Below are positions 12,375 to 62,600 of a DNA stretch of 64,000 nucleotides, piece after piece. Numbering within the stretch: the first letter of the stretch is position 1; every line of letters starts with the position of its first letter. The DNA is from Pseudomonas sp. FP198 (GTDB lineage: Bacteria; Pseudomonadota; Gammaproteobacteria; Pseudomonadales; Pseudomonadaceae). Both the position numbers and the translations under genes were made by a program. The stretch is taken from the NCBI RefSeq assembly GCF_030687895.1, contig NZ_CP117452.1:5385001-5449000 (forward strand). The letters are read 5' to 3'. Under the pieces are notes generated by a model. It saw only the letters and a list, made by a program, of their open reading frames with translations. It was not told the DNA's origin and did not search any database.

Positions 12375-12614
12375 TAACGGCTTCTTATGGTTTCGCCCTT
12401 ACGGCGAGTCACTTTCGAAAGGCGCGAAAGTAACCAAAGCGCCTTTGCCCCACCACTTGGTGCCTCGCCTAGGCTCGGCATGCCCTCACTCCGGCATTGC
12501 TCCGTGGGCCCGCCGCGAAGGGCCGTCCCTGGCCCAGCGCGGCTACCTCGGCATCCATGCCGAGGTGCCCACTGCGCAATGCCTGCGTTCGGCCATCGTG
12601 GTTAACGGGGCGCC
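12375..12614. repeat. Large inverted repeat, copy A (~240 bp)
   Basis: Matches the reverse complement of 13291-13539 over its whole length, with mismatches and small indels. It holds an internal hairpin (12546-12565, CCTCGG...CCGAGG) that is preserved in the other copy with changed bases. No open frame in it resembles a known protein. Confidence 0.85.
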
Positions 12615-13290: not shown

Positions 13291-13539
13291 AGGCGCCCCG
13301 TTAACCACGCTGGCCGAACGCAGGCATTGTGGAGTGGGCATCCCGGCATGGATGCCGGGATAGCCGCGCTGGGCCAGGGACGGCCCTTCGCGGCGGGCCC
13401 ACGGAGCAATGCCGGAGTGAGGGCACACCGAGCCTGGGCGAGGTGCCGAGTGGTGGGGCAAAGCCTTTTTTGCTTACTTTTTTTGGCGTCTGAAAAAAAG
13501 TGAGTCGCCGTAAGGGCGAAACCCTAAGCAGCCGTTACC
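13291..13539. repeat. Large inverted repeat, copy C (~250 bp)
   Basis: Reverse-complement partner of copy A. Contains the covarying hairpin TCCCGGCATGGATGCCGGGA at 13341-13360. The stretch 13540-13660 after it contains no gene that I can support. Confidence 0.85.
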
Positions 13540-13676
13540 TAAATAACGGATATACACACAAAACCCCCAACTCCCACAGTCCGTCATCCCAAGGCTACGA
13601 CGTCTTGCGCCTTTGCCTACAACTACGCCAGAATCCGCCGGCTTGTGCGCCTTGGCCCTGGGCTCTAACGTTTGCA

Positions 13677-13850
13677 GGTCGCTGACAGCTCAGCGATCGG
13701 GTTTAGCAGCTCGGCATAATATCAAGGCACGCAGGTCCGTTTTATGGCGGCTGTGCGTGGGGCACTTCGGTGCGCCGGGTTCCTTGATTCCTGGTCTGCT
13801 AACCCGCGTACTGCCGCCACCCTTTTCGTTTAGCAGCGATGTCTGGCGGC
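13677..13850 (+). promoter_or_regulatory. Structured 5' leader of the DUF6124-type gene
   Basis: Four helices can be read. GGTCGCTGA/TCAGCGATC forms a hairpin at 13677-13698. ATCAAGG/CCTTGAT (13721-13727 with 13782-13788) closes a junction with arms CACGCA/TGCGTG (13728-13733 with 13754-13759) and GCAC-TTCG-GTGC (13762-13773). CTGCTAA/TTAGCAG (13796-13802 with 13830-13836) interleaves with GCCGCCA/TGGCGGC (13813-13819 with 13844-13850) as an H-type pseudoknot, 11 nt before the AAGGAG ribosome-binding site. Similar leaders recur before DUF6124/DUF3077 genes in pseudomonads as I remember them; the function is unknown. Confidence 0.65.
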
Positions 13851-13872
13851 TCCATCAATCAAGGAGCTCACG

Positions 13873-14145
13873 ATGTACAAAGCCACACCGAACCCACCAG
13901 AACCAGAAACCCACCCCAACGACCATCCATCGAGCCAGCTCTTCACCGTCGTGGACGGCATCGACACCGAAAGCCTGCTCGCCAACCTCAGCGAAACCCT
14001 GGCCTCGGCCGACGCCATGATCAACGACCTTGCATTCGACTTGGAAGGCTCGCGACGACACATTGCCCTTGGCATTCAGCAACTGATCGAACTGAGCGGT
14101 TTGTTGGCGAATCGAGTGTTGGACACCGTCAATCCGCAGCACTGA
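13873..14145 (+). CDS. DUF6124 (DUF3077-like) small protein
   Basis: A 90-residue protein that I recognise only as a Pseudomonas family of unknown function. It opens with MYKATPNPPEPE, typical of the family. A central acidic and hydrophobic region (FTVVDGIDTESLLANLSETLASADAM) is followed by a helical C-terminal half (IALGIQQLIELSGLLANRVLD). AAGGAG at 13861-13866 gives a strong ribosome-binding site with good spacing. It has no signal peptide or membrane helix. It stands alone, behind the repeat island and a structured leader, and ahead of a terminator shared with opgH. Such proteins occur in several copies per genome; their role is not known to me. Confidence 0.8.
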   Translation: MYKATPNPPEPETHPNDHPSSQLFTVVDGIDTESLLANLSETLASADAMINDLAFDLEGSRRHIALGIQQLIELSGLLANRVLDTVNPQH

Positions 14146-14218: not shown

Positions 14219-14250
14219 AAGAGCGAATCGCCAATAAAATGCGCCCCAAC

Positions 14251-14286
14251 AAAAAGCCCCGCCTCTTTTCAGAAGCGGGGCTTTTT
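14251..14286. terminator. Bidirectional terminator between the DUF6124 gene and opgH
   Basis: AAAAAGCCCCGC (14251-14262) pairs with GCGGGGCTTTTT (14275-14286), giving a GC stem with U-runs on both strands. Confidence 0.9.
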
Positions 14287-14291
14287 GTGGA

Positions 14292-61962: not shown

Positions 61963-62163
61963 ACTACCCAGTTTCGGGGACCTTGGTACAGGCAGGCCGG
62001 GGATTCCCCTCTTTTACACCGGGCTCATCGAGCCCACTGTTTTGGGGGCCTTGATACAGGCAGGTCAAGGTTTCCCTTCTTTACATCCGGGCTGCGCCTT
62101 CACGGCAAGCCCTCCCGTTTTGGGGACCTTTGGTACAGGCAGGCCGGGGATTCCCTCTTTTAT
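61963..62163 (+). ncRNA. nrsZ: NrsZ-type nitrogen-regulated small RNA, three modules
   Basis: It lies directly downstream of ntrC behind a strong sigma-54 promoter, the position of NrsZ in P. aeruginosa. It is built of three units at about 61971-62016, 62039-62085 and 62117-62163. Each unit reads GTTTyGGGG, then CCTT, TACAGGCAGG and a GG-TTCCC-T-rich end. In every unit CCTTGG/CCGGGG or CCTTGA/TCAAGG can close a loop containing ACAGGCAGG. A spacer hairpin GGGCT/AGCCC (62021-62035) separates units 1 and 2. The 3' end is not certain and abuts the stop codon of the opposite gene. Confidence 0.8.
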
Positions 62164-62600
62164 TGCTCCTGGAGACGGATCTCCAGCCGCCAGCGGTCAT
62201 CGACCTCGCTGCCGGTCCACTCCCCTCGCAACGGACGCGCCGCCACCAAAGTCAGCAACAGCCCCTTGTCACTCAACCGCACCCGCCAGTTCACGTCCTT
62301 GCCGTTGAGCTTGAGCTGGCCTTTCTGCGGCCGACCTTGCGCCTGAAATAACAGCGCCACGGAGCCGTCGATGATTTCCCCATGGAGCTCCGGTTCGTTG
62401 TTGAACCAGGCCACCAGCCCTCCCTGGGTGACCTCGACCTGTTGCAACTCGCTCGGATCGGGCGTCGTCAGGCGGCCGATCATCAGCCCGACCATCATGC
62501 CGACGATCGCCAGAGAGCCCATCACCCGAGGCAATAGCTTCGAACGCCGATCGGTTTGCGGCGTAGAATGCCGCTCATCTTTATCTGCGGAGCCGTGCAT
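62160..62600 (-). CDS. Hypothetical membrane-anchored protein
   Basis: Up to 146 residues. One N-terminal membrane helix (VMGSLAIVGMMVGLMIGRL) is followed by a periplasmic beta-rich domain (GLVAWFNNEPELHGEIIDGSVALLF; GPLRGEWTGSEVDDRWRLEI-like end). The maximal start (62600) shares its bases with the trmL start on the other strand. A start at Met27 (62522) would leave room for promoters but has no clear ribosome-binding site, so the start is unresolved. It converges on the NrsZ gene. I do not recognise a family function. Confidence 0.75.
   Translation of the reverse strand: MHGSADKDERHSTPQTDRRSKLLPRVMGSLAIVGMMVGLMIGRLTTPDPSELQQVEVTQGGLVAWFNNEPELHGEIIDGSVALLFQAQGRPQKGQLKLNGKDVNWRVRLSDKGLLLTLVAARPLRGEWTGSEVDDRWRLEIRLQEQ

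Follow-up and report, generated by a model that had tools for sequence, protein, structure and literature searches.

The C4 antisense RNA is a classic immunity RNA of phages and was first known from phage P1, whose record annotates the order a1-b1-C4-a2-b2-icd. Excerpts of two reports describe how the C4 RNA of P1 and P7 is processed by RNase P, how its segment b occludes the ribosome-binding site and how its segment a gives specificity (PMC5320573, PMC12197685). An earlier prediction of C4 motifs in Pseudomonadales (Weinberg 2010) is cited in PMC5320573. The excerpted text of the latter report also describes C4-like transcripts of A. baumannii, which look processed at GGW sites; the Group 1 sRNAs of this species resemble the present case in the many C4-like RNAs per genome and the variable a segment, yet the text assigns no adjacent target genes to them, whereas units of the type described here each precede their own covarying target. 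In B. cenocepacia, an RF01695 (C4) match and an isrK match form one transcriptional unit, according to an excerpt of PMC4603805. The isrK-orf45-anrP unit of Salmonella Gifsy-1 likewise has a leader RNA with partner sites and possibly two-state control, but there the short RNA activates translation, as an excerpt of PMC4825925 describes; the corresponding match at our locus (RF01394, 13678-13745, 29.6 bits) stays below the IsrK cut-off of 50. The CI RNA of P4, described in the same excerpt, is also an antisense RNA flanked by two complementary sites (seqA and seqC), one on its upstream and one on its downstream side; it differs in acting through transcription termination.

Here we analysed a stretch of 64,000 nucleotides from Pseudomonas sp. 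FP198 (contig NZ_CP117452.1), referred to as the window. The folded RNA before its DUF6124 gene is a C4 antisense-RNA module (Table 1). The match to RF01695 scores 77.9 bits against a cut-off of 45 and covers the full model (1-87), and no other family reaches its gathering score at 13677-13872 in the Rfam scan. Since the match lies about 33 bits over the cut-off, the leader RNA is not undescribed, as the initial annotation had supposed. Projected from the mature ends in the P1 record, the mature C4 would extend from about 13746 to 13821. Fold, site order and the placement of the b loop over the Shine-Dalgarno sequence are as in P1/P7, and the spacing to the start codon is similar: relative to the end of the Rfam match, a2, b2 and the icd start lie at +1, +30 and +48 in P1, and a2, b2 and the start codon at +6, +33 and +49 in the window. 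P1 (L160) even has a complement between c and c2 with one bulge (-13.7 kcal/mol), which its record leaves unannotated. The Pseudomonas phages phiAH14b and PAJU2 carry a C4 with b2 about 32 nt behind it; the best duplex that a can form downstream has imperfections in PAJU2. The window differs from P1/P7 in its setting among chromosomal genes, the many copies per genome, the target DUF6124 and a shared 33-bp element upstream. Its a1 and b1 lie about 41 and 19 bases before C4, compared with 82 and 68 in P1, and many other loci also have them farther away. Control of a phage antirepressor, as in the P1-type immI unit (C4-icd-ant), does not apply here, as no ant but a convergent gene follows DUF6124. 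The c4-a1b1-like element RF03163, just below its cut-off in the window, exceeds it in 4 of 20 other DUF6124 loci (L066, L067, L073 and L076).

Table 1. Features of the C4-DUF6124 unit in the window.
Feature	Coordinates	Strand	Basis or remark
33-bp upstream element, operator-like	13619-13651	+	paralogue alignment; overlaps the -35 box
Predicted -35 box TTGTGC	13643-13648	+	peak of TTG at -35, relative to where the a1 hairpin begins
c4-a1b1-like element (RF03163)	13665-13717	+	44.8 bits, just below the cut-off of 46.7
Predicted -10 box TAACGT	13666-13671	+	17-bp spacer; TAnnnT at -12 to -7; predicted start ~13678
5' hairpin	13677-13698	+	13678-13697, and 13677/13698 can also pair; predicted transcript start; inside the c4-a1b1 match
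a1, complementary to C4 segment a	13699-13709	+	set-wide z -22.6
b1, complementary to C4 b loop	13721-13727	+	set-wide z -14.9
C4 antisense RNA	13740-13824	+	RF01695 match; covarying fold
C4 b loop, complement of the Shine-Dalgarno region	13781-13789	+	duplex energies, alignment
C4 segment a (address segment)	13796-13802	+	own-genome matrix, duplex energies, alignment
Segment c, at the end of the closing stem's 3' strand in C4	13813-13819	+	duplex energies, alignment
a2 target site	13830-13836	+	98.0% of cells pair with a
c2, third downstream complementary site	13844-13850	+	90.3% of cells paired; z -6.7
b2 target site (AAUCAAGGA), overlapping the Shine-Dalgarno sequence	13857-13865	+	z -28.2
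Shine-Dalgarno AAGGAG	13861-13866	+	
DUF6124 gene, 90 aa	13873-14145	+	ATG at 13873; PF19619, 106.4 bits

The initial annotation had described the leader as a hairpin, a three-way junction and an H-type pseudoknot. All helices it named (the hairpin, 13721-13727 with 13782-13788, 13796-13802 with 13830-13836 and 13813-13819 with 13844-13850) were recovered by inspection of sequence and alignment columns, and the strong structure it postulated was borne out: the leader 13678-13890 folds at -82.8 kcal/mol (z -2.44), only 3 of 200 shuffles being as good. Both pseudoknot helices covary, with 98.0% and 90.3% of cells paired in the 78-locus alignment, and are the pairing of a with a2 and of c with c2. 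The three-way junction as drawn is not the conserved fold; conserved instead is the C4 shape (98.9% of cells paired), which in the window comprises the stem 13745-13761/13803-13819 with one U-U mismatch, a UUCG arm and the b-loop arm. The helix thought to close the junction is the contact of the b1 target with the C4 b loop. The main contact, in which the b loop pairs with 13857-13865 and so covers the Shine-Dalgarno sequence, was absent from that description. The suggestion that the leader is placed to control DUF6124 translation is supported. Leaders of the kind it mentioned before related genes turned up widely in the genus scans for C4 and DUF6124, and the start predicted at about 13678 lies upstream of 13800, as the proposed leader requires.

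Evidence for an antisense module also comes from its pairing with its own neighbourhood across many loci. All 17 C4s of the own genome, 30 loci from a genus search and 60 picked from the best matches listed gave 107 loci, hence 105 distinct leaders (two identical leaders dropped) and 99 distinct C4s (six identical C4s dropped); the genus loci thus represent the best-scoring C4 matches listed and are not a random sample. For each C4 segment, the duplex energy with its own leader was compared with that of shuffled partners in 10000 permutations. Pairing is strongly locus-specific for a-a2 (z -23.8) and b-b2 (z -28.2), and likewise upstream for a (z -22.6) and b (z -14.9) and, less strongly, for c-c2 (z -6.7), with 0 of 10000 permutations as good in each of these five tests (n=99); kinship among the loci inflates such shuffle-based counts, which is offset in part by controls with wrong partners and with slid columns. 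The wrong combinations a-b2 and b-a2 gave flat results (4069 and 1714 of 10000 permutations as good), and c has no upstream partner (n=43, equalled by 4778 of 5000 permutations). Taken locus by locus, the own target was unbeaten for a-a2 in 46, for b-b2 in 41 and for c-c2 in none of the 99 loci; that it is often not the best is because many loci share addresses across species.

Furthermore, the pairings covary in a MAFFT alignment of 78 of the 99 loci, which was not fitted to the structure by hand. The a-a2 helix contains 130 double-changed cells besides its high paired fraction. For b-b2, the six core pairs reach 80.9% of cells and the two outer pairs 51.6%, the latter being low because gaps disturb the alignment columns. 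Jointly, the a-a2, c-c2 and b-b2 helices are paired in 86.7% of cells, compared with 32.8-51.6% when the partners are slid by 1-3 columns. The three-stem fold of C4 is kept still better, with double changes in 17 of 26 pairs and 31.7-48.5% of cells paired in slid controls.

Within the own genome, the summed a-a2 and b-b2 energies of the 17 loci show that each locus has a largely private address, made up of a and b: the own target is unbeaten for 16 of 17 C4s, a figure in which an identical duplicate pair counts as ties. The exception is L008, whose C4 prefers other targets. The next target comes within 1 kcal/mol of the own one for L005 (the locus in the window), L006 and L007, so some cross-talk is possible. 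On the upstream side, 10 other loci surpass the window's a1 and 7 its b1 in this own-genome matrix, for which a stretch was used that truncates this a1. With addresses that are mostly private, the 17 chromosomal units should be mostly insulated from each other.

Promoter-like boxes (Table 1) emerge when the loci are anchored at the start of the a1 hairpin, which was possible for 101 of 105. The set-wide promoter score is 6.59, compared with 5.42 (sd 0.09, maximum 5.61) in 200 mononucleotide shuffles, and a consensus promoter scan of the window did not list the predicted promoter. From these sequence patterns, we infer that the transcript starts at the a1 hairpin. The upstream 33-bp element is identical in 7 of 7 aligned paralogues of the own genome; mean identity to the window is 0.42-0.78 for 20-base blocks at 13660-13859 and 0.12-0.46 for blocks lying upstream of 13600. 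The element occurs at nine places in the genome, eight of them at C4-DUF6124 promoters, corresponding to 8 of the 17 C4 loci. An orphan copy lies at G000:C1:83306-83356. A pattern for its 23-bp core, allowing two mismatches, was found in 23 of 59 genomes of the genus, while reversed-pattern controls gave 0; in one of these genomes (G010), each of the 18 matches is followed at 209-431 bp by a same-strand DUF6124 match, among the 27 of its 29 DUF6124 places that were listed. Judged by conservation and position, the 33-bp element is operator-like and may be the binding site for a protein.

C4 and DUF6124 are both multi-copy and coupled. The own genome contains 17 C4 matches and 16 DUF6124 matches above the cut-off, which by their coordinates form 12 pairs (12 of 17 C4s, 12 of 16 DUF6124s), leaving five C4s that do not precede a DUF6124 match and four DUF6124 matches that lack a C4. 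One of the latter (L031) retains a sub-threshold a1b1 element of 36.8 bits. Another DUF6124 match lacking a C4 adjoins a PrrF sRNA (L032:1264-1411, 166 bits). Across 59 genomes of the genus, C4 was found in 54 (53 above cut-off), with a median of 17 copies, a maximum of at least 54 and 10 or more copies in 37 genomes, high counts being lower bounds as at most the best 61 candidates were scored per genome. DUF6124 occurs in 47 of these 59 genomes, and its counts correlate with those of C4 (Spearman 0.876). The coupling is loose, with at least 38 C4s versus 2 DUF6124s in G009, at least 28 versus 3 in G025 and at least 22 versus 4 in G057. Seen from DUF6124, with one locus per genome, a C4 lies upstream in 14 of the 20 loci used (of 25 available). 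Beyond the genus, C4 is sparse, with 1-6 matches each in 17 of the 273 genomes scanned from the rest of the class, in a search of the best 15 candidates per genome that recovers 15 of 17 copies in the own genome, so that high counts are again lower bounds. DUF6124 was found in one of 145 genomes of the order, namely this one; the rows listed include no more than four further genomes from the family, of which one belongs to the genus.

Which genes follow C4 was scanned in 91 of 105 downstream frames, 45 of which match DUF6124, 10 DUF3077 and 4 Bro-N; the 14 loci left out have no frame of at least 40 aa from the chosen start and include L017, a known DUF6124 match. Many of the remaining frames belong to a family of 52-aa peptides or to a family with an LLIDT motif, both named by eye and by motif rules. 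Given these different genes, C4 appears to be a general translational module, with DUF6124 as its main client in the own genome. The distance from C4 to the start codon, with counting from 0, is 44-59 nt (median 50; 95 of 104 within 46-55), a spacing that is partly built in because the script picked starts 6-33 nt from the b2 found. Peptides of about 52 aa (near NPSKIRAAAHRAMALAALHANSSLATRL) follow C4 at L036, L038, L043, L223 and others, in genus genomes as well as in viral contigs, and the one that was tested gave no PHROG or PADLOC match. At L007 and L008, the start after C4 runs into a short or out-of-phase frame, which at L008 is not the DUF6124 frame.

For the DUF6124 protein of the window, AlphaFold2 (mean pLDDT 84.8) predicts a helical hairpin (residues 32-56 and 59-85) behind an N-terminus of lower confidence. 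Searches with this protein gave no fold match in the PDB at E <= 0.001 and no PHROG family, and none of the four proteins given to PADLOC, including this one, had a match. In P. putida, a mutation in a DUF3077 gene arose in furfural-tolerant evolved strains; causality is not shown in the excerpted account (PMC9630843). The 13 neighbouring genes scanned with Pfam are of chromosomal type (PhaC, ABC1 kinase, chemotaxis receptor, MdoG, aromatic amino acid lyases and others); none is of prophage type, and one has no Pfam match. The gene after DUF6124 is a convergent gene for a glycosyltransferase, partner of MdoG, which we take to be MdoH. Between the two genes, a GC-rich hairpin flanked by A/T runs (14248-14290), which the scan did not list, is probably a shared terminator. 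We also considered a phage origin of DUF6124 itself and rejected it: a DUF6124-like frame, assigned by a motif rule, follows only 4 of 38 distinct C4-type stretches from viral contigs, and three of these four lie within about 250 bases of the DNA end and are possibly host flank.

In our view, the C4 module in the leader probably represses translation of DUF6124, acting as an excised antisense RNA. A single transcript from about 13678 would carry a1-b1, C4, a2-c2-b2 and the DUF6124 gene. C4 would adopt its three-stem shape and be excised, by RNase P if the analogy to P1 holds. The freed RNA could then bind other copies of the same transcript, a with a2 and the b loop with b2, and the latter pairing would cover the Shine-Dalgarno sequence and block the ribosome. 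The upstream a1b1 copy could also bind C4 and is probably a decoy or a feedback site. When C4 is folded alone, the b loop and a are unpaired and c lies within the stem; hence a and b can act in trans, c cannot, and c2 is more likely a cis competitor for the stem. By displacing the 5' strand of the C4 stem, c2 may decide between C4 and message in the nascent transcript.

The closest competing explanation is a cis switch in one unprocessed transcript, in which the b loop binds b2, a binds a2 and c binds c2, shutting the start site, with the Shine-Dalgarno helix enclosing the pseudoknot of the initial annotation; processing, a protein or a competing RNA would open the switch. IsrK sets a precedent for alternative leader folds, according to an excerpt of PMC4825925, and the window itself favours this arrangement: its minimum-energy fold contains a 13-pair b-b2 helix over the Shine-Dalgarno sequence, the cis fold of the full leader is 2.3 kcal/mol better than one with the C4 stem and b-loop arm enforced (-81.9 vs -79.6 kcal/mol), and the Shine-Dalgarno sequence is paired to b in cis with a probability of 0.79, compared with 0.19 for the C4 stem. 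These figures come from a program that cannot score pseudoknots, so the pseudoknot part lies outside them. However, the cis b-b2 helix exceeds a probability of 0.5 in only 5 of 98 leaders, the window among these five, and accessibility of the Shine-Dalgarno sequence over the 98 leaders is 0.37 in the full leader versus 0.39 in the downstream part (p 0.53). General sequestration of the Shine-Dalgarno sequence in cis finds no support across these 98 leaders, the window being an exception, and the structure best kept by covariation is the C4 fold (98.9%). We consider the cis switch unlikely as the mode of control. The excised antisense RNA in turn is not favoured by all folding results, since the C4 stem exceeds a probability of 0.5 in 55 of the 98 full leaders, and co-folding of C4 with its target gains only 1.8 kcal/mol (-60.3 vs -43.2 and -15.3) and opens the C4 stem, in a program that cannot score loop-loop contacts with the stem kept. 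Together with the fold of the window, this makes a mixed cis/trans mode possible.

Two readings concern the nature of the element itself. The initial annotation had taken the leader to be riboswitch-like, and a complex conserved leader that often stands before one gene family does recall a ligand-binding riboswitch of a new class. The variable loops change jointly with the target sites, though, which argues for an antisense RNA and not for a fixed ligand pocket; no conserved ligand core with invariant unpaired bases was found, the element is a full Rfam C4 match, and the same RNA precedes differing genes, e.g. those for Bro-N and the 52-aa peptides. We rejected this reading on the Rfam match and the covariation of loops with targets, and regard it as hardly credible. 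That the unit is left over from a prophage immunity region and has no role today also seems quite improbable to us, even though Pseudomonas phages carry C4 RNAs, a C4-type pattern occurs in 61 stretches of viral contigs, and at L007 and L008 the starts after C4 enter a short or wrong frame. Compensatory changes keep the pairings, the 33-bp promoter element is identical among the paralogues, the scanned neighbours are of chromosomal type, and the window protein lacks a PHROG family. A different kind of proposal, extending the repression by C4 instead of replacing it, is that the unit resembles a type I toxin-antitoxin pair, in which C4 silences a small growth-inhibiting protein, as with icd in P1. 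The DUF6124 start occupies the position of icd, whose product is annotated in P1 as an inhibitor of cell division, and the many scattered copies with mostly private addresses would fit; but DUF6124 gave no alignment with P1 Icd at E <= 100 and no PADLOC match, and we offer this extension as a doubtful one.

The chromosomal setting of C4, with its many copies and its coupling to DUF6124, looks new. The literature searched, mostly open papers without their supplements, yielded no account of C4 coupled to DUF6124, of these copy numbers, of private addresses or of the 33-bp element. Counts that reach a median of 17 and a maximum of at least 54 C4s per genome, many of them before one protein family, together with the mostly private addresses seen in the single genome examined for them, point to domestication on a large scale. 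We speculate, with considerable reserve, that in Pseudomonas an immunity RNA of phages became the basis of a network of chromosomal addresses that keeps small helical proteins silent until C4 is titrated. Such a network would comprise up to dozens of units per genome with mostly private a plus b codes, expressed in part from the shared 33-bp element, and c2 would set the choice between C4 and message. The silenced DUF6124 family would be restricted to the genus, and a titrator could be, e.g., the a1b1 or a2b2 RNA of an incoming phage. The network could sense or block C4-bearing phages, whose antirepressor leaders would be silenced by matching addresses, or set free DUF6124 proteins that brake growth. 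The units offer natural sets of insulated translational repressors and a handle on the function of DUF6124 and DUF3077, and whether chromosomal C4 RNAs act on invading phages can now be put to the test.

Two other RNA families were seen in the Rfam scan of the window. The middle part of the TwoAYGGAY family occurs upstream of the unit in two inverted copies, at 12506-12570 (-) and 13336-13400 (+), with 49 and 50 bits; a further match lies in L068, and these copies look like a dispersed repeat. The nitrogen-regulated sRNA NrsZ is located at 61965-62170, with 145.9 bits.
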